Part shown: in pieces, positions 23,134-38,447 of the stretch
Layout of the letters: every line of letters begins with the position of its first letter
How positions within the stretch are numbered: the stretch's first letter is position 1
NCBI GenBank assembly: GCA_028873575.1
Contig: JAGWHY010000011.1
Location: forward strand, 1 to 39,626
Length of the DNA: 39,626 nucleotides
DNA from: Acidobacteriota bacterium
Lineage (GTDB): Bacteria > Actinomycetota > Acidimicrobiia > Acidimicrobiales > RAAP-2
Direction: 5' to 3'
Notes under the pieces: generated by a model
The model's database searches: none
Seen by the model: the letters and a program-made list of their open reading frames with translations, nothing else
What the model was told of the DNA's origin: nothing
Position numbers and translations under genes: made by a program

Positions 23134-23916
23134 CTAGATCCAGCCCTGGTCCCGGGCGATCTGCTCGACGTCGCCGATGCGAAGGCCGTTGCGGTGTTGC
23201 AACGTGCGAATCAGTCCGCCGGCTTCGTAGAGCGATTCGTGCGTGCCGGTGTCGAGCCAGGTCGTCGCGCGTGAAAGCACCTCCACGCGAAGCTCACCGC
23301 GCTCGAGGTAGGCGTTATTGAGCGCGGTGATCTCGAGTTCGCCGCGCGCGCTCGGCGTGAGGGCGCGCGCGAAACGCGACGCGCGTTCGTCGTAAAAGTA
23401 GATACCAGGAACCGCAAAAGAACTCTTGGGATGCGCGGGCTTTTCTTCGATGGAGCGTACGCGCCCGTCTTCGTCAAAGTCCACCACGCCGTAGGCCGAG
23501 GGGTCGCTGACTTGGTAGGCGAAAATCAGCGCGCCGTCGACGTCGACGTTTTGGCGTAAGTGAGTCCCGAGCCCGGGGCCGTAGAAGAGGTTGTCGCCGA
23601 GGATCAACGCGCACTTGTCACCGTCGAGGAACGTCTCACCTAACAGGAGCGCCTCGGCGAGTCCGTTGGGCTGGTCTTGGACGACGTAGTGAAGTTCCAG
23701 ACCGAGTTGCGATCCGTCGCCGAGGAGTCGTTGAAAGGCGGCCTGGTCGTGGGGCGTTGTGATGAGCAAGATTTCCCGTAGGCCACAGAGCATCAAGGTG
23801 CTCAGCGGGTAGTACACCATCGGCTTGTCGTAGACCGGCAGTAACTGTTTGGACACGGCACGGGTAATGGGGTGAAGGCGCGTGCCACTGCCGCCCGCCA
23901 AAATGATTCCCTTCAC
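23134..23916 (-). CDS. rmlA: Glucose-1-phosphate thymidylyltransferase
   Basis: 260 residues. It joins dTTP and glucose-1-phosphate to dTDP-glucose, the first step toward dTDP-rhamnose and other deoxysugars. The nucleotide loop is [13 protein letters not shown] (residues 6-18), followed by [28 protein letters not shown], the sugar-binding [20 protein letters not shown] and [10 protein letters not shown]. It is about 30 residues shorter than the usual long RmlA, lacking part of the C-terminal helical region that forms the allosteric interface, which resembles the shorter archaeal/actinobacterial type. GTG 23916 follows TATACT by 6 nt. It is encoded divergently from rmlB and rmlC, sharing a promoter region with overlapping -10 boxes. 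Confidence 0.94.
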
Positions 23917-23921
23917 TCCAT

Positions 23922-23928
23922 TAGTATA
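23922..23928. promoter_or_regulatory. Bidirectional promoter core between rmlA and rmlB
   Basis: Minus-strand TATACT (23928-23923) lies 6 nt before rmlA GTG 23916. Plus-strand TAGTAT (23922-23927) points at rmlB, giving a leader of about 31 nt. The two -10 boxes overlap by five bases, so one opened DNA segment could serve both directions. Confidence 0.45.
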
Positions 23929-23965
23929 AGAGCCTGAAATCCCCCTTCTTTTGGCGAGGTTAGCT

Positions 23966-24940
23966 ATGCGCGTAGTGATTACTGGGGCGGCGGGATTTAT
24001 CGGTTCGCGCTTCGCCGAACTGCTGTTAAACGACGCGGAGCGCCTCGGTTACGACGAACTCGTCGTCCTCGACGCACTGACGTATTCGGGTCGCCGGGAG
24101 AACCTCGAGACGTTTCTGGCGGACTCGCGCACTCGTTTCGTGCAGGGTTCGATTACTGACGCGACGATTACCGACGAGGTACTCGCCGGCGCGCACGCCG
24201 TGGTGCATCTGGCCGCCGAGAGCCACGTCGATCGTTCGATCACGGGCGCGCGTACGTTCTTCGAAACGAACGTGCTGGGTACGCAACAGTTACTCGAGAG
24301 CGCGCGGCGCGGTGGGGTCGAGCGTTTCGTGCACGTCTCCACCGACGAGGTCTACGGCTCGATCGACGAAGGGGCGTGGCGCGAAGATCACCTGCTCGAG
24401 CCGAACTCGCCCTACTCGGCGTCTAAGGCGGGATCGGACCTCGCGGCGCTGGCCTACGCCAGCACGTACGGACTTCACGTGTCGGTGACGCGCTGCTCGA
24501 ACAATTACGGCCCACGCCAATTCCCCGAGAAGGTCATCCCCCTTTTCGTGACGAACCTCTTTGACGGCGCCAAAGTGCCGCTCTACGGTGACGGCGAGAA
24601 CGTGCGCGACTGGCTCCACGTCGACGACCACGCCCGGGGTCTGCTGGCGGTGCTCGAAGGGGGCCGATCGGGCGAGATCTACAACATTGGCGGCGGTACC
24701 GAACTGACGAATCGGGCGTTGACCAAAATGCTGCTCGAACTCTGCGGCGCGGACGAGTCGAGCATTGAGCCGGTGGAGGACCGCCTCGGTCACGACCGTC
24801 GCTACAGCGTGGACTGGGGCAAGATTCGTGACGAGCTCGGGTATCGCCCTCGCGTTGACTTCGAAGAGGGGTTGGCCGCGACCGTGGCTTGGTACCGCGA
24901 CCACGAGTCGTGGTGGCGTCCGCTCAAGGGTCGCGCGTGA
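23966..24940 (+). CDS. rmlB: dTDP-glucose 4,6-dehydratase
   Basis: 324 residues from ATG 23966 (GAGG ribosome site, 6-nt spacer); an in-frame TTG at 23951 lacks support. The enzyme converts dTDP-glucose to dTDP-4-keto-6-deoxyglucose. It is an extended short-chain dehydrogenase: the NAD loop GAAGFIG is at 7-13, the catalytic T126-D127-E128 in STDEVYG marks a dehydratase, and the Y150-x3-K154 pair is in [24 protein letters not shown] and [17 protein letters not shown] are RmlB hallmarks. It is followed by rmlC through a GTGA overlap and lies divergent to rmlA. Confidence 0.96.
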
Positions 24941-25503
24941 CGCGTCGTTCGCTCAACGTGACGGGCGCGTACGTCCTGGACTCACCACTGTGGCGTGACG
25001 ATCGCGGCTATTTTCGCGAGTGGTTTCAGCGCGACGTCCTAAGTGACGACGGCCCCGAACTCACCGCTCGTCAAGCCAATCTCTCGCTCTCTAAGCGCGG
25101 CGTCGTACGCGGTCTGCACTACTCACTCGCCCCCGAAGGCCAAGCCAAGTTAGTGACGTGTGCCTGGGGAGAGTTGGTGGACGTGCTGGTTGACGTGCGC
25201 GTGGGGTCACCCACCTTCGGCGTCGTTGAGTACGTCACTCTGAGCGCCGAGGGGACGTCGTCGGTCTACGTCCCGGCCGGCGTCGCGCACGGGTTTTGCG
25301 TGACGAGTGAGGTTGGCGTGTTGACGTACCTCTTGTCCTCGCCCTACAACGGACCGATGGAGCTCGAAATCACTCCCTTTGATCCGGCCCTCGCCATTGC
25401 GTGGCCGCTCGAGGGCGACCCCATCTTGAGCGACAAGGACGCGAAGGCGCCGACGCTCGAGGAGCGCCGCGCCGCGAACCAACTGCCAGACTTCGTTCTC
25501 TAG
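24937..25503 (+). CDS. rmlC: dTDP-4-dehydrorhamnose 3,5-epimerase family protein
   Basis: 188 residues from GTG 24937, which overlaps the rmlB stop (GTGA). RmlC epimerises C3 and C5 of dTDP-4-keto-6-deoxyglucose. The cupin core shows RGYFREWF, the catalytic His61 in VVRGLHYS, Lys71 in GQAKLVTC, the acid in VDVLVDVR, YVPAGVAHGF and Tyr131 in VLTYLLSSPYN. With the expected His and Tyr present it should be a functional 3,5-epimerase, though single-position epimerases of antibiotic sugars share the fold. No rmlD follows, so the final reductase, or a different sugar branch, must be encoded elsewhere. Confidence 0.93.
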   Translation: MTRRSLNVTGAYVLDSPLWRDDRGYFREWFQRDVLSDDGPELTARQANLSLSKRGVVRGLHYSLAPEGQAKLVTCAWGELVDVLVDVRVGSPTFGVVEYVTLSAEGTSSVYVPAGVAHGFCVTSEVGVLTYLLSSPYNGPMELEITPFDPALAIAWPLEGDPILSDKDAKAPTLEERRAANQLPDFVL

Positions 25504-25524: not shown

Positions 25525-25530
25525 TAGCGT
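25525..25530 (+). promoter_or_regulatory. -10 box (TAGCGT) of the deoC operon
   Basis: Ends 7 nt before GTG 25538. An earlier in-frame GTG at 25529 overlaps the box and is therefore unlikely. This promoter probably drives deoC through pgm. Confidence 0.5.
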
Positions 25531-25537
25531 GAGCAAG

Positions 25538-26530
25538 GTGAGTTCGACCACGTCGTCTTCGGTCGCGCGCGGTGGCGCGTACGTCACCCTCGCGCCACGT
25601 AACGAAGTGCTGGAGGTCGAGTCCGAAGCGCAACTGCGCACGTTGCTGTCCAGCCTTTCGGGAGTCGACGCGGTTGGCCTCGAGGCGCGGGTCGCGAAGT
25701 TGTCCACGCGTTCGCTCAAGCAATCGACGAAACTGACCGCACTGGACCTCGCTATCTCAATGGTCGATCTCACGACGCTAGAAGGTGCGGACACGCCCGG
25801 CAGGGTCCGCTCGCTCTGCCACAAGGCTCGCCGTCCCGATCCCCACGACGCCGCCGTACCTAACGTGGCGGCCGTCTGCGTCTACCCTGACTTAGTGAGC
25901 GTCGCTCGCGACGCGCTGGCGGGATCGCGGGTGGCGGTTGCCTCGGTCGCGACCGCCTTCCCGTCGGGGCGCGCCTCGCTCGCGGTCAAACTCGCCGACG
26001 TCCGTGAGGCGCTGGCCGCGGGAGCCGACGAGATCGACATGGTGATCGACCGCGGGGCTTTTTTGGCCGGACGGCTCGGACGAGTCTTCGAAGAGATCGT
26101 CGCCGTGAAGGCGGAGTGTGGTGCGGCGAGGCTCAAGGTGATTCTTGAGACGGGTGAGCTCGTCACGTACGACAACGTGCGTCGCGCTAGTTGGCTGGCC
26201 ATGCTCGCCGGCGCCGATTTCATTAAGACCTCGACGGGCAAAGTTGGCGTGAACGCGACGCTGCCCTTCGCGCTCGTGATGCTCGAGGCCGTGCGCGACT
26301 TCGCGGAGGTCGCGGGTCGCCCGGTTGGGGTCAAGGTCGCGGGAGGCGTACGTAACGCGAAAGACGCGCTGCGCTATCTGGTCGTGGTCAACGAAACGGT
26401 GGGCGCGCGATGGCTCAGCGCGGACTACTTCCGCGTGGGGGCGTCGTCGCTGCTGAATGATCTCTTGATGCAACGCTACAAACAACGCCGTGGCGTCTAC
26501 CCGCGGTCCGACGAGTTCAGTGGAGACTGA
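25538..26530 (+). CDS. deoC: Deoxyribose-phosphate aldolase, DERA long form
   Basis: 330 residues from GTG 25538. It splits 2-deoxyribose-5-phosphate into acetaldehyde and glyceraldehyde-3-phosphate. The Schiff-base lysine is K230 in DFIKTSTGK; K200 (RLKVILETGEL) and K266 (VGVKVAGGVR) complete the site, and EIDMVID holds the conserved Asp. It is about 75 residues longer than the E. coli enzyme because of an N-terminal extension ending in a helix before MVDLTTLEGADT. From memory, that extension, NATLPFALVMLEAVRDF and RVGASSLLNDL resemble eukaryotic-type DERA rather than the short bacterial type. It leads a tightly packed operon with two aldehyde-dehydrogenase genes, punA and pgm. Confidence 0.94.
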   Translation: MSSTTSSSVARGGAYVTLAPRNEVLEVESEAQLRTLLSSLSGVDAVGLEARVAKLSTRSLKQSTKLTALDLAISMVDLTTLEGADTPGRVRSLCHKARRPDPHDAAVPNVAAVCVYPDLVSVARDALAGSRVAVASVATAFPSGRASLAVKLADVREALAAGADEIDMVIDRGAFLAGRLGRVFEEIVAVKAECGAARLKVILETGELVTYDNVRRASWLAMLAGADFIKTSTGKVGVNATLPFALVMLEAVRDFAEVAGRPVGVKVAGGVRNAKDALRYLVVVNETVGARWLSADYFRVGASSLLNDLLMQRYKQRRGVYPRSDEFSGD

Positions 26531-26531
26531 C

Positions 26532-27995
26532 GTGAGCGACGATCAACTGCAGTCACGTCTCGGCGCACTGATTTACGACGCGGCTCCCGAGTCGACGGCG
26601 TCGGTGCAGTTGCGATCACACTACGGGCTCTACGTCGACGGCGTTTTTCGTGACGGCGCGGAGAACCAACACTTCGTGACGATCAACCCCGCAACCGAGG
26701 AAACCCTCGCGAGCGTGACCCAAGCGAGCGCGCACGACGTCGACCTCGCCGTTCGCGCCGCGCGCCGTGCCTACGACGACGTCTGGTCGACGATGCCCGG
26801 CGCGGAGCGCGCCAAGTATCTCTTTCGCGTGGCTCGACTGATTCAAGAGCGTGCGCGAGAACTGGCGGTCGTCGAAACACTGGACAACGGCAAGCCCATT
26901 CGCGAATCACGTGACGTCGATATTCCCCTCGCCGCCGCGCACTTCTTTTACTACGCGGGCTGGGCCGACAAATTGGACTTCGCCGGATTCGGACCGGCGC
27001 CAAAGCCCCTCGGGGTGGCCGGCCAGATTATTCCCTGGAACTTCCCGCTCATGATGGCCGCGTGGAAGTTGGCCCCGGCGCTCGCGGCCGGGAACACCTG
27101 CGTGTTGAAGCCGGCCGAGACGACGCCACTGACGGCCCTGCTTCTCGCGGAGATCTTCGAGCAGGCGGAGCTCCCCGCTGGCGTCGTGAACATCCTCACC
27201 GGTGACGGCTCGGTCGGCGCGGCGATCGTCGATCACCCGGGTATCGACAAGATCGCCTTCACCGGTTCGACCGAGGTCGGTCGCCAGATTCAGCGCCACG
27301 TCGCGGGTTCGAGCAAGCACCTCACGCTCGAACTCGGCGGCAAGGGCGCGAATATCGTCTTCGATGACGCCCCACTTGACGAAGTGGTCGAAGGAATCAT
27401 CGACGGCATCTTCTTCAATCAGGGTCACGTCTGTTGCGCCGGTTCGCGACTGTTGGTCCAAGAGACGATCGAGGACGAACTCCTGCGCCGACTGACGCGC
27501 CGCGTGGAACAGCTGCGCGTCGGCGACCCGTTGGACAAGAACACCGACGTCGGGGCTATCAACTCGGCCGCGCAGCTCGCGCGCGTCGAGGAGATCACCG
27601 CGTCGGGCGAGCTCGAGGGCGCCACGCGATTTTCGAGTTCGTGCCCCCTGCCCGAGAAGGGCTTTTGGTTCGCGCCGACGATCTTCTCAAACGTTTCGCA
27701 GTCCCAGCGCGTGGCGCGCGAAGAGATCTTCGGGCCGGTGCTGTCGGTCTTGAACTTTCGTACGCCGGACGAAGCGGTCGCGAAGGCGAACAACACGACC
27801 TACGGGCTGGCGTGCGGGGTGTGGAGCGAGAAGGGGAGCCGGACGATGTGGGTTGCCGAACGACTTCGCGCGGGCGTCGTGTGGGCTAATACGTACAACC
27901 GCTTCGATCCTGCCAGCCCCTTCGGCGGCGTTCGTCAATCGGGGTTTGGTCGCGAGGGTGGCCGTCAGGGACTTGAGGCCTACCTTGACGTCTAA
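26532..27995 (+). CDS. NAD(P)-dependent aldehyde dehydrogenase, probably oxidising acetaldehyde from DeoC
   Basis: 487 residues from GTG 26532, which has a GGAG ribosome site 6 nt upstream; GTG 26520 is an alternative that overlaps deoC. All catalytic residues are present: N170 in IPWNFPL, K193 in VLKPAE, the cofactor motif FTGSTEVG, general base E267 in LELGGKGAN, nucleophile C301 in FNQGHVCCAGSR, and EEIFGPVLSV near the end. Position directly after deoC suggests it oxidises acetaldehyde to acetate, removing the toxic aldolase product; that substrate is inferred. The gene starts 1 base after the deoC stop, and its end overlaps the truncated paralogue behind it. Confidence 0.93.
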   Translation: MSDDQLQSRLGALIYDAAPESTASVQLRSHYGLYVDGVFRDGAENQHFVTINPATEETLASVTQASAHDVDLAVRAARRAYDDVWSTMPGAERAKYLFRVARLIQERARELAVVETLDNGKPIRESRDVDIPLAAAHFFYYAGWADKLDFAGFGPAPKPLGVAGQIIPWNFPLMMAAWKLAPALAAGNTCVLKPAETTPLTALLLAEIFEQAELPAGVVNILTGDGSVGAAIVDHPGIDKIAFTGSTEVGRQIQRHVAGSSKHLTLELGGKGANIVFDDAPLDEVVEGIIDGIFFNQGHVCCAGSRLLVQETIEDELLRRLTRRVEQLRVGDPLDKNTDVGAINSAAQLARVEEITASGELEGATRFSSSCPLPEKGFWFAPTIFSNVSQSQRVAREEIFGPVLSVLNFRTPDEAVAKANNTTYGLACGVWSEKGSRTMWVAERLRAGVVWANTYNRFDPASPFGGVRQSGFGREGGRQGLEAYLDV

Positions 27996-28833
27996 CCCTC
28001 GCCTCGACGTTCGAAAGACGTACAAACTCGTCGTGAACGGCGCCTTCGTGCGGTCCGAGTCCGGCCGTAGTTACGAGATCGTCGACGCGTCGGGAACCTT
28101 CGTCGCGAACGTCGCGCGGGCCTCACGAAAGGACGTGCGCGACGCCGTGGTGGCGGCGCGCGCGGCCCAAGCGAAATGGTGGGCCGCCACGGCGTACAAC
28201 CGCGGACAGGTCCTCTACCGACTCGCGGAGATGGCGGAGTCGCGTCGCGACGAGTTGCGCGACCACGTCGCGTTGGCCGAAGCGTCAGAGGCCGTAGCCG
28301 CGGTAGCTCGCGCCATCGACCGCGTGGTCTGGTACGCCGGATGGACCGACAAGATTGCGCAGGTCTACGGCTCGACGAACCCCGTGGCCGGACCGTTCTT
28401 TAACTTTTCGCACCCCACGCCGTCGGGCGTGGTCGCGGTCCTGGCGCACCCGACGTCCTTCGAAGGGTTGATCGACCAGGTCATGGCGCCCCTCGCCGCC
28501 GGCAACACCGTCGTCGTGGTGGCGAGCGAACGGCATCCGACGCCGGCCGTGCTACTCGGCGAACTCTCGGTGACCGCGGACTTTCCCCCGGGCGTGCTCA
28601 ACGTGTTAACGGGCTCGCTCGACGAACTCGCGCCCGTCGTGTGCGCACACGAAGATGTTGACGGCGTGGACCTCTCGGGCGTCGACGACGCGCTCCTGGG
28701 TGAACTCAGGTCGCTGAGCGCGGAGTCCATCAAGCGTGTCGTTCGCGCGGGCTTCGCCAGCGACGCGGACTCGCTGCGTCGACTGCGGACCTTCATTGAG
28801 ACGACGACGGTGTGGCACACGGTGGGTCAATAG
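27985..28833 (+). CDS. Truncated, catalytically dead aldehyde dehydrogenase homologue
   Basis: 282 residues if TTG 27985 is the start (GAGG site 6 nt upstream); GTG 27958 is an alternative. It aligns by eye with the N-terminal half of the preceding enzyme: YKLVVNGAFVRSESG, the long helix region, VVWYAGWTDKIAQVYGS, SGVVAVLAHP and MAPLAAGNTVVVVASE. The catalytic Asn position of PWN reads HPT, the cofactor Lys of LKPAE is gone (VVASE), and the half with the Glu base and Cys nucleophile is missing; the protein ends soon after LLGELRSL. The reading frame is clean and coupled at both ends, so it is not an obvious pseudogene. A regulatory, structural or channelling partner for the active enzyme or DeoC is possible. 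Confidence 0.8.
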   Translation: MTSNPRLDVRKTYKLVVNGAFVRSESGRSYEIVDASGTFVANVARASRKDVRDAVVAARAAQAKWWAATAYNRGQVLYRLAEMAESRRDELRDHVALAEASEAVAAVARAIDRVVWYAGWTDKIAQVYGSTNPVAGPFFNFSHPTPSGVVAVLAHPTSFEGLIDQVMAPLAAGNTVVVVASERHPTPAVLLGELSVTADFPPGVLNVLTGSLDELAPVVCAHEDVDGVDLSGVDDALLGELRSLSAESIKRVVRAGFASDADSLRRLRTFIETTTVWHTVGQ

Positions 28834-29651
28834 TGGACAGTCCCTACGCCCTCGCCCAATCGGCGGCGGACGAGCTCCGTGCGCGGGCCGGCGTCGATCG
28901 CTACGACGTCGCCATCGTCCTGGGTTCGGGTTGGCGTGAAGGTGTCGGCGTCCTCGGCGACGTGCAGCACGACGTCGCGACGAGCGCGTTGCCCGGCTTT
29001 TACGCGCCGACGGTGCCCGGTCACGGCGCCCACGTACTCTCCCTGCACGTGGGCGCGCTGCACGTCGCGCTGTTGACCGGACGCGTCCACCTCTACGAAG
29101 GTCGAAGTGCGGCGCAGGTCGTGCACCCGGTGCGAACCTTGATCGCGGCGGGCGCGTCGACCGTCATCTTGACCAACGCGTGCGGTGGCGTCGATCCCTC
29201 ACTGAACCCCGGCGACACCGTCCTCATTCGTGATCACCTCAACCTGACGGGGACGTCGCCCCTCGAGGGGGAAGCGCCACCGGAGGGCTACGGCTCACGA
29301 TTCGTCGACTTAAGCGACCTCTACAGCGCGCGGCTACGCGAGCGCATCACGACGAACGTGTCGGACCTGCGCGAGGGCGTGTACCTCGGTCTGCGCGGTC
29401 CCCACTACGAGACCCCGGCCGAGATCGTCATGGCGCGCTCGCTCGGCGCCACGTTGGTCGGCATGTCCACCGTCCTCGAGGCCATCGCCGCTCGTCACCT
29501 GGGCGCGGAGGTCGTCGGACTCTCCCTGGTGTCGAACCACGCCGCGGGCGTCGTGGCCGGTCCGTTAGATCACCTCGAAGTTCTCGAAGCCGGGCAGCGA
29601 GCCGCGCCGTCGCTCGGCGCCTTGCTCGCGGCCGTGCTCGCCCTCTTGTGA
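28833..29651 (+). CDS. punA: Purine nucleoside phosphorylase (trimeric type)
   Basis: 272 residues from GTG 28833, whose first base is the last base of the preceding TAG. It cleaves purine (deoxy)nucleosides with phosphate to base plus (deoxy)ribose-1-phosphate. Phosphate-binding GSG lies at 31-33 (LGSGW), H86 is in GRVHLYEG, then LTNACGG. The base site has E193 in GPHYETPAEI, M211 in VGMSTVLEA and N235 in SNHAAG. The Glu/Asn pair is typical of enzymes preferring inosine and guanosine. Its end overlaps pgm by GTGA. Its product feeds the mutase next door. Confidence 0.95.
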   Translation: MDSPYALAQSAADELRARAGVDRYDVAIVLGSGWREGVGVLGDVQHDVATSALPGFYAPTVPGHGAHVLSLHVGALHVALLTGRVHLYEGRSAAQVVHPVRTLIAAGASTVILTNACGGVDPSLNPGDTVLIRDHLNLTGTSPLEGEAPPEGYGSRFVDLSDLYSARLRERITTNVSDLREGVYLGLRGPHYETPAEIVMARSLGATLVGMSTVLEAIAARHLGAEVVGLSLVSNHAAGVVAGPLDHLEVLEAGQRAAPSLGALLAAVLALL

Positions 29652-31297
29652 GTCGTTGGGACGCCGAGGTCGAGGCCTGGATCGCGGGCGATCCAGATGA
29701 GTCGAACCGCGAAGAGTTGCGCGTGCTGCTAGCGCGCCACGACGACGCCGAACTGGCACTTCGATTCGCGCACCCCTTGCGCTTCGGGACCGCCGGCTTG
29801 CGTGGTCCCGTGATGGCCGGGCCGGCCGGCATGAATCGCTACAGCGTACGGCGCGCGACTCAAGGAGTGCTCGCTTGGCTGAAGTGGCGCGGTGACGATC
29901 TCGGACGCGGCGTCGTCGTGGGCCGCGACGCGCGACACGGATCGCAAGCGTTCGCCGACGAGGTCGTCGCCGTGTTGCTCGGCGCAGGCGCGCGCGTGCT
30001 GGAGTTGCCCTCCGCGCTGCCCACACCCTTCGTGCCGTACTGCGTCACGGCGCTCGGCGCTGTCGCGGGGATCATGATCACGGCCAGCCACAACCCACCC
30101 CAGGACAATGGCTACAAGCTCTACGCGGCGGACGGCGCGCAAATTCTCGGACCCGACGACGAGGTCGTCGAGCGATTCGCGCGCGCCGCGCCCTTACAGC
30201 CGCCACTCGGGTCGCGCGCGAGTGACCGGCACGAATGGATTGAGGACGACGTTCTCGAGCGCTACCGCGCGCACCTCATGGAGCGCTTCGCGCCACGGGG
30301 AGGAAGCGACCTCGTGATCTGCTACACCCCGCTGCACGGCGTCGGTGGTGCGTCTGCTCGTGACCTGCTCGAACGCGCCGGGTACCGTCACGTGCACGTA
30401 GTCGACGCGCAGTTCGCGCCCGACCCCGATTTTCCGACGTTGCCGTTCCCAAATCCCGAAGAGCCGGGCGCACTCGATTTAGCGATTCGTCGTGCGCGCG
30501 AGACGAAGGCTGACCTCGTCCTCGCGAATGACCCCGACGCTGATCGCCTCGGCGCGGCGGTGCCGGACCGAGGGGAGTGGCGGGTCCTGCGCGGAGACGA
30601 AATCGGTTGGCTCTTAGCTTCGGCGCTCTTCGACGCCGGCGTCGCGCCCGGGGACGTCGTCGCGACGACAATTGTCTCCTCCACACTCTTGGAGGCGATG
30701 GCTCGTGACGCCGACGTTTCTTTCGCGTTGACGTTGACGGGATTTAAGTGGATCGCGCGCGCGGCGGGCGAGCGTCGTCTGGCCTTTGGTTACGAGGAGG
30801 CTTTGGGTTTCGCGGTCGACGACGCCGTCTCGGACAAGGACGGGCTTTCGGCCGCTCTCGCACTCGCGCGTCTCACGCACGATCTTCGCGCGCGGGGTCA
30901 AACGTTGGTGGACCGACTCGACGAACTCGAGGAGCGCTACGGCGTGCACGCCACGACGCAGGTCTCGCTGCGCTTGGCCGACGAAGGCACTGCCAGTCGC
31001 GTGGTGGCCGCGTTGCGCGCGCACGCGCCTACGACGCTGGGTGGTCTCGCCGTGCGTGAGGTCGTCGACCTTCGTGACGGTTGGCGCGCCCTGGCCCCGA
31101 CGGACGGCCTGCTCTTTAATCTCGGTGATGACGGTCGCGTCGTCGTGCGGCCCTCAGGCACCGAGCCCAAGGTGAAGTTCTACGTGGAAGTGACCGGAGT
31201 GACTGGCGCGACGTTGGACGAGCGCCGCGAGGCAGCCGCGCGCCGCCTACGCGCGATCAGTGACGACGTGCGTGCGCTCGCGTCGCGCGTCGCGTAG
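29648..31297 (+). CDS. Phosphohexomutase-family enzyme, probably acting as phosphopentomutase
   Basis: 549 residues. Alpha-D-phosphohexomutase superfamily, with all four domains: phosphoserine S147 in ITASHNPPQDNGYKLY, the Mg loop D295-P-D-A-D-R300, the sugar-binding loop GYEEALGF and the phosphate loop RPSGTEPKVKFY. The family interconverts sugar-1- and sugar-6- or 5-phosphates. Lying behind punA and with no deoB-type gene in view, it most likely turns (deoxy)ribose-1-phosphate into the 5-phosphate for DeoC; a phosphoglucomutase or phosphomannomutase role is the alternative. The GTG overlaps the punA stop (GTGA). Its last 51 bases overlap the 3' end of the convergent add gene. Confidence 0.93.
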   Translation: MSRWDAEVEAWIAGDPDESNREELRVLLARHDDAELALRFAHPLRFGTAGLRGPVMAGPAGMNRYSVRRATQGVLAWLKWRGDDLGRGVVVGRDARHGSQAFADEVVAVLLGAGARVLELPSALPTPFVPYCVTALGAVAGIMITASHNPPQDNGYKLYAADGAQILGPDDEVVERFARAAPLQPPLGSRASDRHEWIEDDVLERYRAHLMERFAPRGGSDLVICYTPLHGVGGASARDLLERAGYRHVHVVDAQFAPDPDFPTLPFPNPEEPGALDLAIRRARETKADLVLANDPDADRLGAAVPDRGEWRVLRGDEIGWLLASALFDAGVAPGDVVATTIVSSTLLEAMARDADVSFALTLTGFKWIARAAGERRLAFGYEEALGFAVDDAVSDKDGLSAALALARLTHDLRARGQTLVDRLDELEERYGVHATTQVSLRLADEGTASRVVAALRAHAPTTLGGLAVREVVDLRDGWRALAPTDGLLFNLGDDGRVVVRPSGTEPKVKFYVEVTGVTGATLDERREAAARRLRAISDDVRALASRVA

Positions 31298-32374
31298 TCG
31301 CGCGTAGCCGGGTTTGATCACCGTGTTGATGAGGCGTAGCCGTTCGTCGAAGGGGTAGAAGGAACTCTTCGCCGCGTTGAGCGTCAGCCACTCGACGTCG
31401 TCGAGATCCCAGCCAAAGGCGCGCGCGCACGTTTCGAATTCCGAGCTGAGCGTGACCCCACTCATCAGGCGATTATCCGTGTTGAGCGTGACGCGAAAAC
31501 GAAGTTGTCGCAAGAGTTCGATGGGGTGTTCCAGGATTGACTTCGCCGCGCCGGTGTGCACGTTGGAGGTGGGGCAGACCTCGAGGGGAATACGTCGATC
31601 GCGCACGAAACTCGCGAGGAGCCCGAGTGTGTACTCCCCGTCGGTCTCGGTGATGTCGTCGACGATGCGGACCCCGTGGCCCAAGCGCTCCGCGTTACAG
31701 AATTGGACCGCCTCCCAAATTGACGGAAGGCCGAAGGCTTCGCCGGCGTGGATCGTCATGTGAAAATCCTCGCGTTGGACGAGTTGGAAGGCGCGCAGGT
31801 GTTCGGTGGGTGGGAAACCGTCTTCGGGTCCCGCGATGTCGAAGCCGCACACACCCTGGTCGCGAAAGTCAACGGCCAGTCGCGCGATGGTTTCGCTGTG
31901 GGCCGCTTGACGCATCGCGGAGAGAATGGCGCGCACGACGATGACGTGACCCTCCTCGCGCGCGGCGCGCGTGCCCGAGACAAAGCCCTCGAGCACCGCG
32001 CGCACCACGTCGGGGAGAGAGAGTCCCTCATTGAGGTGCTGCTCGGGCGCGAAGCGCACCTCGGCGTACACGACGCCGTCGCGCGCGAGGTCGAGTGCGC
32101 TCTCGTGCGCCACGCGCGCGAGCTGCTCGCGAGTCTGCATCACGGCGACGGTGTGCGCGAAGCCTTCGAGGTAGCGAACCAGATCCCCACCTTCGTCGTC
32201 GGCGATGAACCACCTCGCGAGTTCGTCGGCGTCCGTGGTGGGCAGGCCGGAGTAGCCAATCTCGGCCGCTAACTCAATCATCGTTTGTGGTCGCAGCCCG
32301 CCGTCCAGGTGCTCGTGCAACAGAACCTTAGGGGCGGCGAGGATTTCGTCTCGTGAAAGCGTCGTTGCCGTCAT
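31247..32374 (-). CDS. add: Adenosine deaminase
   Basis: 375 residues. It hydrolyses adenosine and deoxyadenosine to (deoxy)inosine, which PunA can then split. Zinc ligands are H20 and H22 in LHEHLDGGLRP, H209 in IHAGE with the catalytic Glu212, and D300 in LNTDN; H233 in RLGHG is the catalytic His. All are present. ATG 32374 follows TAGCCT by 6 nt, an internal promoter between deoA and add. The 3' end runs 51 bases into the convergent pgm gene, so both C-termini are coded by the same DNA on opposite strands. Confidence 0.97.
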   Translation of the reverse strand: MTATTLSRDEILAAPKVLLHEHLDGGLRPQTMIELAAEIGYSGLPTTDADELARWFIADDEGGDLVRYLEGFAHTVAVMQTREQLARVAHESALDLARDGVVYAEVRFAPEQHLNEGLSLPDVVRAVLEGFVSGTRAAREEGHVIVVRAILSAMRQAAHSETIARLAVDFRDQGVCGFDIAGPEDGFPPTEHLRAFQLVQREDFHMTIHAGEAFGLPSIWEAVQFCNAERLGHGVRIVDDITETDGEYTLGLLASFVRDRRIPLEVCPTSNVHTGAAKSILEHPIELLRQLRFRVTLNTDNRLMSGVTLSSEFETCARAFGWDLDDVEWLTLNAAKSSFYPFDERLRLINTVIKPGYARLRDARRERTHVVTDRA

Positions 32375-32393: not shown

Positions 32394-33677
32394 CTAGCTC
32401 GTGGCGTCGACGCGTTCGAAGAGCAGGGGAGTCTCGACGACGGGTTCGTCGCCAATCATCAGCGCGCCAACAATCTCGTCGTGACCGGCGCGCAGTCGCG
32501 CCTCGTCGTCGGCGTGCAGGACGAAGAGCGGTTGGCCCGTCTCCACGTGATCACCTCGTCGAACGAGTACTTCGACGCCCGCGCCGGCGCTCACGGGGTC
32601 CTCCTTGCGAGCCCGTCCTGCGCCCTGGCGCCACGCGGCGACGCCGACGCGGTAGGCGTCGATGGATTGCACGACGCCGGCGCGCGGCGCGACGATCGTC
32701 TCGCGATGGGCGCTACGAGCAAGCGGCGCGTCAGGGTCACCTCCCTGGGCACTGATCATCGCGCGATAGACGTCGTACGCCGATCCGTCGTCGAGCCGCG
32801 CGGCGGGATTATCGTCGAGCCCAACGAGTTCCAACATGATGGACGCCAGCGCGACGGTGAGGTCGCGCACGTCGCGCGGGCCGCCTCCGCGCAGAACCTC
32901 CACCGACTCTTCTACCTCGAGGGCGTTCCCGACGCTGCGCCCGAGTGGCTCGTCCATGTTGGTCAGCTGCGCCACCGTGTGAACGCCGTGCGACGTGCCG
33001 AGATCGACCATGGTGCGCGCGAGACGAAGTGAACTCTCTCGGTCCTTGAGGAACGCCCCGCGACCTACTTTGACGTCCAACACCAGCGCGTCGGTTCCCT
33101 CGGCGATTTTCTTCGACATGATGGACGAAGCGATTAAGGGTATGGATTCGACGGTGGCGGTCACGTCGCGCAGCGCGTACAGCCGTCGATCGACCGGCGC
33201 GAGTCCGGAACCGGCCGCGCAGATCACCGCGCCGACGTTTTCGAGTTGTTGGTAGACCTCGTCATTAGTGAGCGCGGCGCGCCAACCGGGGATTGACTCG
33301 AGCTTGTCGAGGGTCCCGCCGGTGTGACCGAGTCCACGCCCCGAGAGCTGGGGCACCGCCGCGCCGCAGGCCGCGACGAGCGGCGCCAGAATCAGCGAAA
33401 TCTTGTCGCCGACGCCGCCCGTGGAGTGCTTGTCGACGGTGGGCCGCGAAAGACCCCGTAGATTGAGACGTTCGCCCGAGTTGATCATGGCCTTGGTCCA
33501 GGTCCCGAGTTCACGCGAACCGAGACCTCGAAAGAAGATGGCCATGAGCATCGCGGACATCTGCTCGTCGGCGACGTCGCCACGGTCGTACGCCTCAAGT
33601 AACCACGTAATGGCGGCGTCACTCAATTCCTGGCCGTCTCGCTTCGCGGCAATAAGAAGTGGCGTCGAGTAACTCAC
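32394..33677 (-). CDS. deoA: Thymidine (pyrimidine-nucleoside) phosphorylase
   Basis: 427 residues. It splits thymidine, deoxyuridine and possibly uridine with phosphate into base and (deoxy)ribose-1-phosphate. The phosphate loop is K83-HSTGGVGDK, the family signature; SGRGLGHTGGTLDKLES and ALRDVTATVESIPLIASSI form the pyrimidine site, and the C-terminal alpha/beta domain (about 340-427) includes VLVRRGDHVETGQPLF. GTG 33677 overlaps the cdd stop (GTGA), so deamination and phosphorolysis are produced together. Distinction between thymidine-specific and broad pyrimidine enzymes cannot be made safely. Confidence 0.96.
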   Translation of the reverse strand: MSYSTPLLIAAKRDGQELSDAAITWLLEAYDRGDVADEQMSAMLMAIFFRGLGSRELGTWTKAMINSGERLNLRGLSRPTVDKHSTGGVGDKISLILAPLVAACGAAVPQLSGRGLGHTGGTLDKLESIPGWRAALTNDEVYQQLENVGAVICAAGSGLAPVDRRLYALRDVTATVESIPLIASSIMSKKIAEGTDALVLDVKVGRGAFLKDRESSLRLARTMVDLGTSHGVHTVAQLTNMDEPLGRSVGNALEVEESVEVLRGGGPRDVRDLTVALASIMLELVGLDDNPAARLDDGSAYDVYRAMISAQGGDPDAPLARSAHRETIVAPRAGVVQSIDAYRVGVAAWRQGAGRARKEDPVSAGAGVEVLVRRGDHVETGQPLFVLHADDEARLRAGHDEIVGALMIGDEPVVETPLLFERVDATS

Positions 33678-34090
33678 GACGTGGCGCGGGTTTTGAGGTC
33701 CTCGGGGCCAAAGGCCCCGGGCAGGAGTTCGTCGAGGCGTCGGGGCGTCTCGCCCTCACCGGCGTCTATCAAGAGTTCGGCGCCGCCGTGTTCAAACAAC
33801 AGCTGACGGCAGCGCCCACAGGGCGTCAGTGGTTCGCCGTCACCGGCCACGACGCTGACCGCGAGCAGTCGCCCACCGTCGACGCGTACGAGGTCACCTA
33901 CTAAGGCGCATTCGGCGCACAGCGTGAGTCCGTAACTCGCGTTCTCGACGTTCGAGCCCTCGATGATCTCGCCCGAACTGGTCAGCGCACTCGCGCCGAC
34001 GCGCACCCGCGAGTAGGGGGCGTAGGACCTGGTGGCGGCGTCGCGGGCGCGAGCGCGCAGGAGGTGCCAGTCCACGTTGACGAGGGGCAT
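33674..34090 (-). CDS. cdd: Cytidine deaminase (tetrameric type)
   Basis: 138 residues from ATG 34090. It converts cytidine and deoxycytidine to (deoxy)uridine. Zinc ligands are C58 (with catalytic Glu60, TLCAECALVG) and C91/C94 (PCGRCRQ); substrate binding is by NVENASYG. Length and three-Cys site match the small tetrameric enzymes. The frame stays open upstream to 34381, but that part is Ser/Thr/Arg shadow of psuG. GTG 34093, one codon earlier, lies 6 nt after the -10 box and may be the true leaderless start; ATG 34090 has a GAGG site. It is coupled to deoA. Confidence 0.95.
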   Translation of the reverse strand: MPLVNVDWHLLRARARDAATRSYAPYSRVRVGASALTSSGEIIEGSNVENASYGLTLCAECALVGDLVRVDGGRLLAVSVVAGDGEPLTPCGRCRQLLFEHGGAELLIDAGEGETPRRLDELLPGAFGPEDLKTRATS

Positions 34091-34099
34091 CACGACCTC

Positions 34100-34109
34100 A
34101 CAGTACACT
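34100..34109. promoter_or_regulatory. Bidirectional promoter core between cdd and psuG
   Basis: Minus-strand TACTGT (34105-34100) points to cdd and plus-strand TACACT (34104-34109) to psuG. They share two central bases. The gap between the two start codons is only 28 bases, so no other regulatory space exists. Confidence 0.5.
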
Positions 34110-34118
34110 TCGCGGTGC

Positions 34119-35042
34119 GTGACTCCTCCCCTTCCTTCTTCTTTCGTGCTGTCTGACGAGGTGCGTGACGCATTCAACGACGGCCGCGGCGTCGTGGCGC
34201 TGGAGTCGACAATCGTGGTGCACGGCCTTCCGGCGCCAGTGAATTTGGAAGTCGCGCGCGAATGTGAAGAGGCCGTGCGCGCCGCGGGCGCCGTACCGGC
34301 CACGATCGCCGTACTCGGTGGCGAGATTCGTGTCGGGCTCTCGGTCGAGGAGATCGACGCCTTGGCCGACCCGTCGCGCACGGTCGCGAAACTCTCGACG
34401 CGCGACCTCGGCTACGCCGTCGCGCGACACCTTGACGGGGCCACCACCGTCGCCGGGACGATCGCCGTCGCGCACCGAGCTGGGATTGACGTCATGGCGA
34501 CGGGTGGGCTCGGCGGTGTTCATCGCGGCGCGAGCGAGAGTTTTGACGAGTCGGCGGATTTGACGGCGCTGTCGCGCACGCCCGTACTCGTCGTGGCCTC
34601 TGGCGCCAAGTCGATTCTCGACGTCGGCGCGACCCTGGAGCGACTCGACTCACTCGGCATACCGGTGTGGGGCTATCGCACGACGCGATTTCCAGGGTTT
34701 TACCTACGCGACTCGGGATTCTCCCTCGACTGGTCGGTTGACTCGCCCCGTGAGGCGGCCGACGCGTTCCGCGCCCACCGCGTGACTTCGCCCACCGGCG
34801 TCTTGGTCGCCCAGCCAATAGACGCAAAAAATGAGTTAGATCCCGCCCTGCACGACGCCGCCCTGGCGAGCGCGTTGGCGGTCGTTGCCGCGCGTGGCGT
34901 GAGCGGAAAAGAGGTCACCCCCGTGTTGCTGGAAGAGTTTGCCCGTGAGAGCGCGGGGGTCAGTGTCCAGGCGAATCGTGCGCTGGTCGTCGCGAACGCC
35001 CGGCTCGCCGGCGAGATCGCCCGGTCCTGGAGCGCGTCGTGA
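34119..35042 (+). CDS. psuG: Pseudouridine-5'-phosphate glycosidase
   Basis: 307 residues from GTG 34119; the frame is open further upstream but only through the divergent cdd gene. PsuG breaks the C-glycosidic bond of pseudouridine-5'-phosphate to uracil plus ribose-5-phosphate. Family motifs are VVALESTIVVHGLP with E29, KLSTRDLGYAVA with K91, AGIDVMATGGLGGVHRGA and VVASGAKSILDVG with K164, the lysine that opens the ribose as a Schiff base. All key residues are present. The next gene, psuK, starts inside its stop (GTGA). The pair implies the cell degrades pseudouridine from RNA turnover or from outside. Confidence 0.95.
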   Translation: MTPPLPSSFVLSDEVRDAFNDGRGVVALESTIVVHGLPAPVNLEVARECEEAVRAAGAVPATIAVLGGEIRVGLSVEEIDALADPSRTVAKLSTRDLGYAVARHLDGATTVAGTIAVAHRAGIDVMATGGLGGVHRGASESFDESADLTALSRTPVLVVASGAKSILDVGATLERLDSLGIPVWGYRTTRFPGFYLRDSGFSLDWSVDSPREAADAFRAHRVTSPTGVLVAQPIDAKNELDPALHDAALASALAVVAARGVSGKEVTPVLLEEFARESAGVSVQANRALVVANARLAGEIARSWSAS

Positions 35043-35917
35043 GCGCGAAGCGTGTACTGGTGGTCGGCGACGTCATGTTGGACGTCGTGGTGCGACCGAC
35101 CGCCCCTACGGCGCCGACCAGCGACACGCCCGCGGAGATTCGTGTGGTGCGCGGTGGCTCTTCGGCCACGCTCGCCGTCACGCTGGTCCAACACGGTCAC
35201 CAGGTCACGTTCGTCGGCGCCAGTGGCGACGACGCCGCGTCTGATCTCTTCGCGTCCACGTTGGTCGCCGCGGGCGTGACGCCTCGTTTGCAGATCGCCA
35301 CCGCGACGACCGGCGTCGTGGTCGCCATGGTTGACCACGACGCGCAACGCGCGATGTTCACCGATCGTGGCGCGAATCGAGAGCTCGCGCGCGCGTTCGT
35401 GCTTGACGGGTTATCCGACTTCGACCACGTGCACGTCTCGGGCTACTTAGTGCTGGACGACGCGACGCGCGACGTGGCGCGCGCGGTACTGGCCGAGGCC
35501 GCGACGAGAGGTCTCAGTACTTCGCTCGACGTCTGCTCCGTGGCACCGCTACGCCAGCTCACTCCGGAGCGCTTTCTTGAGGCGAGTGTGGACGCTCGGT
35601 GGCTGTTCGCGAACGCCGAAGAGGCCCTCGTGCTCGCCGGCGAATCTGATCTGGACGTCGCGGTGCGCGGGTTGTCCCGTCACTACGATGAGGTCTTCGT
35701 CACGCGTGGTTCACTGGGTGCCTGGCTCCACGCCGACGGTCGCCGCCACAGCGTCGCGGCGCACGCGGTCGTGGCGCGCGACACCACGGGAGCCGGCGAC
35801 GCGTCGGCCGGCGCCTACCTCGGTTCTCGCCTTGGGGGCGGGAGTATCGTCGCGGCGCTGCAGGCCGCGATGGACGCCGGCGCGCGCGCCATTCGCGAGC
35901 TGGGCGCGCCGAACTAG
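35039..35917 (+). CDS. psuK: PfkB-family carbohydrate kinase, probable pseudouridine kinase
   Basis: 292 residues. Ribokinase-fold kinase: N-terminal VLVVGDVMLDVVV, Gly-Gly at VRGGSSATLAVTL (39-40), the NAEEA segment and the C-terminal catalytic motif DTTGAGDASAGAYL with base D254. It would phosphorylate pseudouridine at the 5' hydroxyl to give the PsuG substrate; the substrate is inferred from coupling to psuG, since PfkB sequence alone does not settle it. GTG 35039 overlaps the psuG stop. Its TAG shares CTAG with the convergent permease gene. Confidence 0.88.
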   Translation: MSAKRVLVVGDVMLDVVVRPTAPTAPTSDTPAEIRVVRGGSSATLAVTLVQHGHQVTFVGASGDDAASDLFASTLVAAGVTPRLQIATATTGVVVAMVDHDAQRAMFTDRGANRELARAFVLDGLSDFDHVHVSGYLVLDDATRDVARAVLAEAATRGLSTSLDVCSVAPLRQLTPERFLEASVDARWLFANAEEALVLAGESDLDVAVRGLSRHYDEVFVTRGSLGAWLHADGRRHSVAAHAVVARDTTGAGDASAGAYLGSRLGGGSIVAALQAAMDAGARAIRELGAPN

Positions 35918-37212
35918 TCGCGCTGGTAGGGAATACCGTCGGCGGCCGGGGCGCGCACGCGTCCAATCAGACCGGACACGACGAAGATGGTGACGACGTA
36001 GGGGAACATCAGGAGAATCGACGTCGACACCGGCACCTGGTAGGTCTGCAGGTTGTTCGCTAAGTACACCGACATCCCAAAGAGCAACGCCGCGACGACG
36101 ACGCCCGAGGGGCGCCAGCGACCAAAGATCAGCCCCGCGAGCGCGATATAGCCGTAGCCCGAGGTGATGCCCGGCTGGAACTGACCCTGCCAGGCGAAGA
36201 GCGCGACACCGCCGACGCCCGCGACGACGCCGCCCAAGATCACGTTGACGTATCGCGTGCGAATAACGTCGATGCCCACCGACGCCGCGGCTTTGGGGTG
36301 TTCGCCCACGGCCCGTACGCGCAGACCCCAGCGCGTGCGAAAGAGGCCGAAACTGATGAGCAGTACCAGCACGACGGCGAGGTAAAAGTAGCCGTTTTCG
36401 TCGAAGAGCACTGGGCCCAAGACGGGGATCTTGGCCAGGAGGGGAATCGTGAGGTTGGGCGCGGGCGAGCCGGCGTTGTACTGCGGATAGGGCGTGAGTA
36501 CCTGCAGGTTGAGGTAGGAGCCCAGTGAGATTACGAGACTCGCGAGCACGACGCCGGCGATGATTTGGTCGGACTGGTAGCGCAGGGCGAAGAAGGCGAG
36601 GATCGCGCCGATCCCTGCGCCGACGACGACGCCGCCGAGCGTGGCGAAAAAGAAGTTGTGGGTCACCGAGTCAATCAGCGATCCCAGGAATGCTCCCGCG
36701 AGGAACTGGCCCTCAATGGCGATGTTGACGACGCCCGCTCGTTCGCACAGCACCCCCGACAGTGATCCGTAGATCAGCACGACGGCCGGCGCGACGCCGC
36801 CCACCAGGACCGAGGTCAAGTTGACGAAACTCACCTGCGACGGGCCGTGGGTGCGCGACGCCCAGAGCAAGATGGCGAGGAAGAAGAGCACGGCGCCACC
36901 ACCGAATCGCGCCATGAGCGCGCGTCGCGGGCGGCGCCAAAGGATTTCGACGCCCCCGGCGACGATCAACGCACCCGCGAGCAGGCAACTCACTCGCGTG
37001 GGTAGCGTCAGCGCGCCGAGATGCCACGGCACGGTACCCGAGGTGTTGACCGGGTTAAAGGTGAACTGGGAGTGCGACCGGCCGGCCGAACCCAGGCCGA
37101 AGGCCCACGCGGTGAACAGACCGAGGGCCACCATCAACAGGCCAATCACCTGATCGCGCTGGAGTCGGCGCCGAGGGGCGGCCACGGCGGTGTGCGAGAG
37201 CGTCGTGGTCAC
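35914..37212 (-). CDS. Nucleoside-type ABC transporter permease (second)
   Basis: 432 residues from GTG 37212, which overlaps the stop of the first permease (GTGA); the frame open further upstream is shadow. A BPD_transp_2-type permease with about nine or ten membrane segments: LTSVLVGGVAPAVVLIYGSL, CERAGVVNIAIEGQFLAGAF, the coupling loop RTRWGLRVRAVGEHPKAAAS, then GYGYIALAGLIFGRWRP. The phrase ERAGVVNIAIEG is typical of the permease of BmpA-type nucleoside importers (NupQ/YufQ group). It has an N-terminal extension of about 110 residues with two or three extra hydrophobic segments before the conserved core. It forms the channel together with the first permease. Confidence 0.92.
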   Translation of the reverse strand: MTTTLSHTAVAAPRRRLQRDQVIGLLMVALGLFTAWAFGLGSAGRSHSQFTFNPVNTSGTVPWHLGALTLPTRVSCLLAGALIVAGGVEILWRRPRRALMARFGGGAVLFFLAILLWASRTHGPSQVSFVNLTSVLVGGVAPAVVLIYGSLSGVLCERAGVVNIAIEGQFLAGAFLGSLIDSVTHNFFFATLGGVVVGAGIGAILAFFALRYQSDQIIAGVVLASLVISLGSYLNLQVLTPYPQYNAGSPAPNLTIPLLAKIPVLGPVLFDENGYFYLAVVLVLLISFGLFRTRWGLRVRAVGEHPKAAASVGIDVIRTRYVNVILGGVVAGVGGVALFAWQGQFQPGITSGYGYIALAGLIFGRWRPSGVVVAALLFGMSVYLANNLQTYQVPVSTSILLMFPYVVTIFVVSGLIGRVRAPAADGIPYQRD

Positions 37213-38447
37213 GTGTTCCACCCTTGTGACGCGAGCTGGAGCCCGCCGACGCCGCGTGCGCGCAGGCGGAAGATCTCTTCGACCAGTACGGGCGTCGCGA
37301 TGAATAAGACGATCGAGTACTGGATGATGGTCGCGAGGTCGAGGGGGATTCCCGTCGTGGCCTGCATCGAGCGCCCCCCGACACCCAGCGCGGCGAAGAG
37401 GAGGGCACCCCACATAATGCCGATGGGTCGGTTGCGACCCAGCAACGAGACGGTGATCGCGGTGAAACCGATACCCGCGCTGCCCACCAAGAATCCCCCG
37501 TCGATGTAGTGCGTGGTGCCGGCCACCTGGGTGATCCCCGCCAATCCGGCCAGCCCACCCGAAATGAGGAAGGCGACGATGGTGACCTTGCGGGGATTGA
37601 TGCCCGACACGCGGGCGGCGTGCGGATTCGCGCCGGACACGCGGAACTCGAAGCCTAGTGAGGAGCGCTCGAGGAACCACCACGCCAAGACGACGACGGC
37701 GGCCGCGATGAACAGACCCCAGTTCACGCGCAGTCCCGACGTGGCGCCAAAGAGCGGCGACAAGAGCGCCCCTGGTCGCAAGATCCGTGAGATGTCGTTA
37801 CCCTGTCCGGGCTGTTGCAGCGGGGTCGACAAGAGCGCGAAGATCAACAAGAGATTGGCTACGTAGTTGAACATCAAGGTCACGATGACTTCGTGCGCCC
37901 CGGTAAAGGCTTTCAGCAGGCCCGGAATCGCGCCGGTGACGACACCACCCGCGACGCCCGCGAGCAACGTCAGAGGTATCAGTACGACGGTGGGCAGATG
38001 CAGGGAGGAGCCGACGGCCACGCCAATAATGCCGCCGACAATCGCCTGACCGTTCGCGCCGATGTTGAACAGTCCCGTTTGAAACGTGATCCCGACGCCG
38101 ATGGAGGCAATGGTCAAGGGTGTCGCGTACGTCAGGGTTTCGGACAAGGGGGTCAGGGTCTGCGTCCAGCCCTGGCCCGTGCGTAGCGAGTTCCACAGCG
38201 ACGCCGGATCAATCACCGCGCCGTTAAACATCGATCGATAGGCGGCACCGACGTAATCGAGCGTCGCCTTGAACGCGTGACCGGGACTGCCCCAAGAGTT
38301 AAAGAAGCCACGCCACGCGTCGAGTACCGGCGTCGTCGTGAAGATGATGACGAACATTCCCACGACGAGTCCGAGCACGACCGCGAAGGCCGTCAAGAGC
38401 ACGGGACTCGCGTACAGTGCTCGCCACCAGCGAGCCAATCTACGCAC
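37209..38447 (-). CDS. Nucleoside-type ABC transporter permease (first)
   Basis: 412 residues from GTG 38447, chosen because a perfect AGGAGG ribosome site lies 6 nt upstream; a TTG at 38462 in the same frame would overlap that site. About ten membrane segments are visible. GITFQTGLFNIGANGQAIVG and AFTGAHEVIVTLMFNYVANL match the NupP/YufP-type permease, with the coupling loop SLGFEFRVSGANPHAARVSG. It overlaps the ATPase gene by 8 bases and the second permease by 4, so all three are one operon. The neighbouring nucleoside catabolic genes support nucleosides as substrate, which is inferred. Confidence 0.93.
   Translation of the reverse strand: MRRLARWWRALYASPVLLTAFAVVLGLVVGMFVIIFTTTPVLDAWRGFFNSWGSPGHAFKATLDYVGAAYRSMFNGAVIDPASLWNSLRTGQGWTQTLTPLSETLTYATPLTIASIGVGITFQTGLFNIGANGQAIVGGIIGVAVGSSLHLPTVVLIPLTLLAGVAGGVVTGAIPGLLKAFTGAHEVIVTLMFNYVANLLLIFALLSTPLQQPGQGNDISRILRPGALLSPLFGATSGLRVNWGLFIAAAVVVLAWWFLERSSLGFEFRVSGANPHAARVSGINPRKVTIVAFLISGGLAGLAGITQVAGTTHYIDGGFLVGSAGIGFTAITVSLLGRNRPIGIMWGALLFAALGVGGRSMQATTGIPLDLATIIQYSIVLFIATPVLVEEIFRLRARGVGGLQLASQGWNT

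Follow-up and report, generated by a model that had tools for sequence, protein, structure and literature searches.

Bacterial enzymes of the ALDH16 family are dimers that mimic the tetramer of classical aldehyde dehydrogenases (ALDHs). A structural study (J Mol Biol, 2019) reportedly described bacterial ALDH16 as a two-module enzyme. In the Loktanella sp. protein (PDB 6mvr, 6mvs, 6mvt, and 6mvu), an N-terminal module with an intact active site is joined to a homologous, non-catalytic C-terminal module. Human ALDH16A1 belongs to the same family, and the catalytic residues are absent from it according to passages in PMC8160307 and PMC10650815; a table row of PMC10650815 lists its substrate as unknown.

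We analyzed a 39,626-nucleotide stretch of actinomycete DNA, referred to below as the window, in which an ALDH gene and a short ALDH-like gene follow deoC. As in the Loktanella enzyme, the catalytic module has an intact active site and is followed by a homologous, non-catalytic module in equal order and with an equal ending. Unlike the Loktanella enzyme, the window encodes the two modules in two genes. Human ALDH16A1 can be likened to the pair by its published description only, and by that description it lacks the catalytic residues that are intact in the catalytic module of the window. Our preferred explanation, to which we assign a probability of about 0.82, is that the short gene is a separate gene for the ALDH16 C-terminal module. 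Its product, non-catalytic and probably not NAD-binding, would form a roughly 1:1 complex with the catalytic subunit, and the complex would oxidize the acetaldehyde released by DeoC to acetate.

The gene pair and its assignment to ALDH16

The genes of the region are as follows.

25529..26530, + strand: deoC, deoxyribose-phosphate aldolase, 333 aa (TIGR00126, 174.5 bits, cut-off 117.3)
26532..27995, + strand: putative catalytic subunit, ALDH16 N-terminal module, 487 aa, without the C-terminal strand (6mvr match, profile, residues, and tail)
27985..27995, + strand: gene overlap; ATG start in relatives, here ACG (27988-27990), with TTG at 27985 as an alternative start
27985..28833, + strand: putative non-catalytic subunit, ALDH16 C-terminal module, 282 aa (6mvr match, profiles, and AlphaFold2)
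28833..29651, + strand: purine nucleoside phosphorylase (NF006054, 291 bits, cut-off 218)
29648..31297, + strand: phosphohexomutase-family protein (family matches only, all below cut-offs)
31247..32374, - strand: adenosine deaminase (NF006847, 565 bits, cut-off 412)
32394..33677, - strand: thymidine/pyrimidine-nucleoside phosphorylase (NF004490, 591 bits, cut-off 269)
33674..34105, - strand: cytidine deaminase (NF004064, 155 bits, cut-off 74)

The short gene runs from a TTG start to a TAG stop through 282 codons (282 aa) without an internal stop, and its reading frame is therefore intact. It shares 11 nt with the ALDH gene, the stop codon of which lies at 27993-27995, and a possible GTG start of the purine nucleoside phosphorylase frame at 28833 would overlap the last base of its TAG. 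These observations agree with a preliminary description of this DNA, which had called the frame intact and coupled to its neighbors. A single base separates the deoC stop from the possible GTG start of the ALDH gene at 26532.

Relatives in the genus start the short gene at an ATG located at -7 relative to the final base of the ALDH stop codon, and this ATG is kept in the other 34 readable genus loci among those listed. The window reads ACG at the same position; the TTG one codon before it is in frame and may replace the missing ATG. The conserved ATG sits within the final two amino acid codons of the ALDH gene, and the ATG-to-ACG change at 27985-27990 leaves the Asp encoded in the ALDH frame unaltered.

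The phosphohexomutase-family protein probably carries out the phosphopentomutase step, judging by its context. About 75 residues of DeoC precede the TIGR00126 match. Farther downstream (34137-39624) are a PsuG-like frame recognized by eye and without an NCBIfam match, a PfkB-family sugar kinase, two ABC permeases, and one ATPase; the best NCBIfam models for the permeases and the ATPase were those of a "putative B6 ABC transporter," all below cut-off. Directly upstream of deoC (23134-25503) lie dTDP-rhamnose-type genes labeled rmlA, rmlB, and rmlC, the rmlC match falling just below its cut-off. An rmlC match recurred in 25 of 31 genus regions, placing surface-sugar genes beside nucleoside genes.

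The Pfam Aldedh profile matched residues 22-234 of the short protein (E 5.7e-34) over profile positions 2-215 of 461, that is, over its first half. The top PDB sequence match of both proteins was the same chain, Loktanella ALDH16 (6mvr). The match of the ALDH covered residues 19-474 (E 1.1e-162), and the best stretch for the short protein was residues 500-764, the non-catalytic C-terminal module (whole-sequence E 7e-34). The first rank of 6mvr arises because its N-module also matches the short protein. As single sequences, the ALDH16 C-module and the ordinary ALDH 1bi9 were practically tied (94.8 versus 94.6 bits), the match covering residues 10-279 of the query on 6mvr and 4-241 on 1bi9. The assignment to the C-module therefore rests on profiles, on the longer coverage, and on gene order.

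Profiles were built from the C-modules and the N-modules of 77 fused non-actinomycete ALDH16 proteins and from the six other ALDHs of the genome. The short protein scored 164 bits with the fused C-modules, compared with 68 bits with the N-modules and 97 bits with the six other ALDHs. The fused N-module profile gave 664 bits for the window ALDH and 230-359 bits for the other six. A Foldseek search with the short protein alone returned TM scores of 0.86-0.87 to the 6mv entries, versus 0.77-0.82 for the other rows shown; its lowest E-value belonged to an ordinary ALDH. No 6mv entry was among the 50 best rows of a VIA-align search with the model of the short protein. Comparing folds therefore does not distinguish the C-module from an ordinary ALDH, any more than single sequences do.

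On this sequence evidence the short gene encodes a non-catalytic ALDH16 C-terminal module, which belongs to a known two-module family, rather than a truncated paralogue; the preliminary description had called it a half-length, dead paralogue. The catalytic module is identified as ALDH16 by its profile score, by its position in a tree (SH-aLRT 99, see below), and by its active-site residues, and the homologous non-catalytic second module by profiles, colinear alignment, and residues. The short protein is 26-36% identical to 26 fused C-modules. The window has no linker of the fused type, which is 25-38 residues long in ten fused enzymes listed.

Split and fused forms across bacteria

Named genomes were scanned with an alignment in which the Loktanella C-module stood first, and the best 80 matches were listed; this sample leans to Loktanella-like sequences and gives no per-phylum frequencies. 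The listed loci came from Pseudomonadota, Gemmatimonadota, Chloroflexota, Acidobacteria, Myxococcota, and others. Both modules lay in one frame in 77 of these best 80, two loci were cut by contig ends, and one was split, so that 77 of the 78 assessable non-actinomycete loci were fused. The sequence of the sole split copy among the best 80 listed, L204 (Chloroflexi isolate CFX11, 5900-6030), suggests a frameshift inside a fused ALDH16 gene.

Among 119 actinomycete loci, repeats included, none was fused, 112 were split, and 7 were not assessable; a further 20 regions comprised 19 split loci and one without the module. After exclusion of repeats and of three loci containing stretches of N, 98 distinct actinomycete pairs remained, and no fused copy was present among these or elsewhere in the Actinomycetota loci examined. 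Because the window has two frames and none of the 98 pairs is fused, the locus represents a two-gene variant and not a standard ALDH16, in which both modules share one polypeptide. The preliminary description had named an unbroken full-length enzyme in close relatives as the mark of a recent truncation; the relatives instead share the short gene.

Relative to the final base of the ALDH stop, the nearest in-frame start fell in the range -13 to +1 in 90 of the 98 pairs (-7 in 43, -3 in 31, and 0 in 12), a count that takes the nearest in-frame candidate, with ATG preferred, and favors short distances. In the remaining 8 pairs the nearest candidate was 47-363 nt after the stop. The frame relation of the two genes was 1 in 50 pairs, 2 in 44, and 0 in 4. 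The short gene is probably translationally coupled to the catalytic gene in Actinomycetota.

These counts bear on two ways in which the split might be only apparent. A sequencing or assembly frameshift could have broken a fused gene, as it may have done in the Chloroflexota locus L204. For Actinomycetota the probability of such an artifact is negligible: with 98 distinct pairs, none of them fused, the three frame relations and the starts at the junction argue against both assembly error and a common frameshift site, and the artifact is rejected there. Alternatively, programmed frameshifting could join the two genes into one ALDH16 chain, for which the +1-frame overlap in the genus of the window would be suitable. 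However, the frame relation varies by lineage (1, 2, or 0), and in 8 of the 98 pairs the nearest start is 47-363 nt past the ALDH stop, so that no single slip site could serve all pairs; the start codon of the short gene accounts for the conserved overlap. We consider programmed frameshifting very improbable and reject it in view of the variety of frames and the positions of the starts.

In a tree of N-modules (50 ALDH16 rows and 6 other ALDHs), a quick tree without bootstrap and with long outgroup branches, split and fused ALDH16 formed one group (SH-aLRT 99), in which the actinomycete split proteins (91) and the fused proteins with L204 (98) were sister groups. In the tree of C-modules, a long branch (100) divided the fused proteins with L204 from the actinomycete rows; this tree is unrooted with long branches and therefore cannot tell fission from fusion. 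The trees fit either fission in Actinomycetota or fusion elsewhere. A more far-reaching reading, which we regard as unlikely, takes the two-gene state as the older one. ALDH16, including the gout-linked pseudoenzyme of animals, would then be the fusion descendant of a bacterial enzyme with two subunits that oxidized acetaldehyde during the breakdown of deoxynucleosides, the dead subunit being an obligate structural partner that may hold DeoC for acetaldehyde transfer.

A search for the short gene in the genus of the window and its relatives gave matches in 37 of 61 genomes at E <= 1e-20, three of which, from other families, reached only 1e-22 to 1e-25 and may be ordinary ALDHs. Within the genus, 32 of 37 genomes matched, own genome included, one of them as two contig pieces. 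The class survey found the short gene in 60 of 198 genomes. A sample of the phylum gave 74 matches in 296 genomes, 71 of them at E <= 1e-59, own genome included; the other three, near 1e-29, resemble ordinary full-length ALDHs. Matches to the catalytic ALDH16 module occurred in 57 of the 198 class genomes, 56 of which also have the short gene, out of 61 genomes with either. Among the four genomes with the short gene only, three (G142, G146, and G177) retain the tail of the catalytic gene upstream, interrupted by a contig end, and in the fourth (G234) the match begins 123 bases from a contig end. The match in the one catalytic-only genome (G187) begins 165 bases from a contig end. Family f39, with streamlined genomes of ~1 Mb (21 with a match listed), keeps both ALDH16 modules; the initial scan gave only two or three candidates per genome in this family, and its short module sits on a long branch of the C-module tree (L207).

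Selection on the short gene is purifying. In the 23 closest pairs (dS < 0.45), which are not independent of one another, dN/dS (omega) was 0.055-0.242, and the window and its nearest relative gave an omega of 0.086 at a dS of 0.79 over 228 codons. Distant pairs had higher values (median 0.42 over 3,629 pairs with pS < 0.62). Synonymous sites in these GC-rich genes are near saturation at such distances, and we therefore relied on the 23 pairs with dS < 0.45.

The missing catalytic domain and the absence of the usual ATG in the window are what would be expected of a decaying, functionless truncated ALDH paralogue, present only here and under relaxed selection, as the preliminary description had allowed. 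We judge this very improbable. Against it stand the matches in 60 of 198 class genomes and, at E <= 1e-59, in 71 of 296 genomes of the phylum sample, the omega of 0.055-0.242, and the presence of both genes in 56 of the 61 genomes with at least one. As a general reading, decay is refuted by these counts, and a recent truncation is rejected on the distribution and on omega.

Active site, fold, and proposed assembly

In a MAFFT alignment, Asn170 of the neighboring ALDH corresponds to Pro in the short protein (in an H-P-T-S-F stretch, where the exact partner residue is uncertain), Lys193 corresponds to Val, and Glu267 and Cys301/302 have no counterpart. The ALDH itself has all of the catalytic Asn, Lys, Glu, and Cys residues. 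The loss of these four from the short protein, by replacement or absence, had been correctly recognized in the preliminary description. Judged as an active classical ALDH (PF00171), the short protein lacks the catalytic Cys and Glu. It does not catalyze, and it probably does not bind NAD.

AlphaFold2 predicted one compact domain for the short protein (pLDDT 95.3, pTM 0.92), in which the NAD-domain fold and the C-terminal strand are kept and the catalytic domain is missing. Over the 50 best rows, VIA-align placed 263-273 residues of the model on full ALDHs, the C-terminal end included; in one example, 268 residues were aligned between model residues 11-282 and positions 7-481 of a full-length enzyme. 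The overlay passes over some 200 residues of the latter, which by sequence are the catalytic domain. The final residues of the model fall on the C-termini of full-length ALDHs, for instance on residue 481 of 4nmj and residue 498 of 8d46. The short protein thus resembles ALDHs of the classical ALDH1/2 type, which the model overlays through to the C-terminal end, and differs from them in having no catalytic Cys or Glu and no catalytic domain. Simple truncation does not describe it: a segment about as long as the catalytic domain is absent from the middle, and the terminal strand is kept. Two elements of the model are of particular relevance.

28372..28422, + strand: predicted beta hairpin, residues 130-146 (model strands 130-134 and 138-146)
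28795..28821, + strand: predicted C-terminal strand E-T-T-T-V-W, residues 271-279 (model strand 271-279)

In classical ALDHs, the C-terminal strand and a neighboring hairpin make up the oligomerization flap, and hairpin 130-146 of the model is likely to be this flap. The ending [TN][VI]W was found in 98 of 100 short proteins, preceded by Lys in 59; one of the two exceptions is cut by a contig end and the other reads T-A-W. The C-module of fused ALDH16 ends in the same way in 75 of the 77 fused proteins from the best 80 matches listed. A Lys follows the terminal aromatic residue at a distance of four in all six other ALDHs of the genome (five by script and one by eye) but in none of 99 catalytic subunits of split pairs. 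The tails of these subunits past the terminal aromatic residue are shorter than 6 residues in 64 of 99 and at most 12 residues in 96 of 99.

With the strand present in the short protein and absent from its catalytic partner, the simplest mechanism would be for the short protein to supply the flap. The two proteins would associate at a ratio of about 1:1, the short protein giving the catalytic subunit its missing oligomerization flap and C-terminal strand as the C-module does in fused ALDH16. A catalytic and a short subunit would together imitate the dimer of classical ALDHs, and the ALDH16 dimer would be reproduced by two of these pairs. Homology to ALDH16, the order of the genes, and their co-occurrence are established, as are purifying selection on the short gene and its predicted fold; we infer the association and the substrate. 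The preliminary description had suggested a "dimer cap": a structural partner of the neighboring ALDH is indeed favored by what the sequences indicate of ALDH16 homology, but its origin as a truncated paralogue is not.

A one-chain model was computed for an actinomycete pair (L109) in which the genes are adjacent and in frame, the separating stop being read as Gln. The model (pLDDT 85.7, pTM 0.86, with the join at 474-498 below 50) overlaid 6mvu end to end with TM scores of 0.90/0.94, and VIA-align placed 735 residues on 6mvs with an rmsd of 2.1. The Z-score for 6mvs was 51.9, versus values such as 51.8 for ordinary ALDHs, with 735 aligned residues as opposed to 464-483. The underlying alignment held 26 natural fused ALDH16 sequences and two read-through rows; with 26 fused enzymes in it, the model is a measure of compatibility and not of binding.

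Alternatively, the main role of the short protein might lie outside the ALDH oligomer: it might link DeoC to the ALDH as a scaffold or channel, or regulate by binding acyl or nucleotide ligands. The preliminary description had likewise named an acetaldehyde-passing scaffold and an acyl/redox sensor. The linkage to deoC, steady in split and fused forms, would suit such a role. However, other phyla encode the module and the ALDH as a single polypeptide, the ALDH partner lacks the strand that the module carries, and the actinomycete pair could be modeled in the 6mvs arrangement. We therefore consider a role chiefly outside the ALDH oligomer improbable.

Linkage to deoC and the likely function of the pair

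The preliminary description had proposed a search for deoC-ALDH-short ALDH trios in other genomes, and such trios recur in other actinomycetes. In 45 distinct split loci the sequence extends 950 nt or more upstream of the pair, and each of the 45 carries deoC there in the same orientation, 44 of them within 300 nt. The fused relatives share this arrangement with the window: deoC precedes the gene in the same orientation in 73 of the 77 fused loci from the best 80 listed, and one of the four loci without it is cut by a contig end. The order deoC-ALDH-short is also present in a named actinomycete, Nonomuraea gerenzanensis: a plasmid search returned one record, an 11.85-Mb Nonomuraea replicon that is unannotated at this place and has this order in its DNA. 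Across the class, the DeoC type of the window was found in 57 genomes (E <= 1e-78), and it was absent from the search in 5 of the 60 class genomes with the short gene, where contig ends were checked for only some. Weaker DeoC matches occurred in 7 more class genomes, none of which has the short gene.

The DeoC reaction yields acetaldehyde and glyceraldehyde-3-phosphate. Given the steady deoC neighbor and this release of acetaldehyde, oxidation of acetaldehyde is the natural expectation for ALDH16, and from the gene neighbors we infer that the substrate of the pair is DeoC-derived acetaldehyde. The complex would turn this acetaldehyde into acetate during deoxynucleoside breakdown.

In kind the explanation is largely an ordinary one, a known module encoded as a separate gene. 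The portions of the open-access literature that were searched contained no mention of a split form of ALDH16 or of its link to deoC. The linkage, found for split and fused forms in several phyla, suggests what ALDH16 enzymes are for and offers a concrete hypothesis for the bacterial members, namely the oxidation of acetaldehyde made by DeoC. The natural split lets the role of the dead module be tested by omitting one gene, which the fused enzyme does not permit. In many actinomycetes, two ALDH-like genes that may be annotated as separate dehydrogenases probably encode one enzyme.
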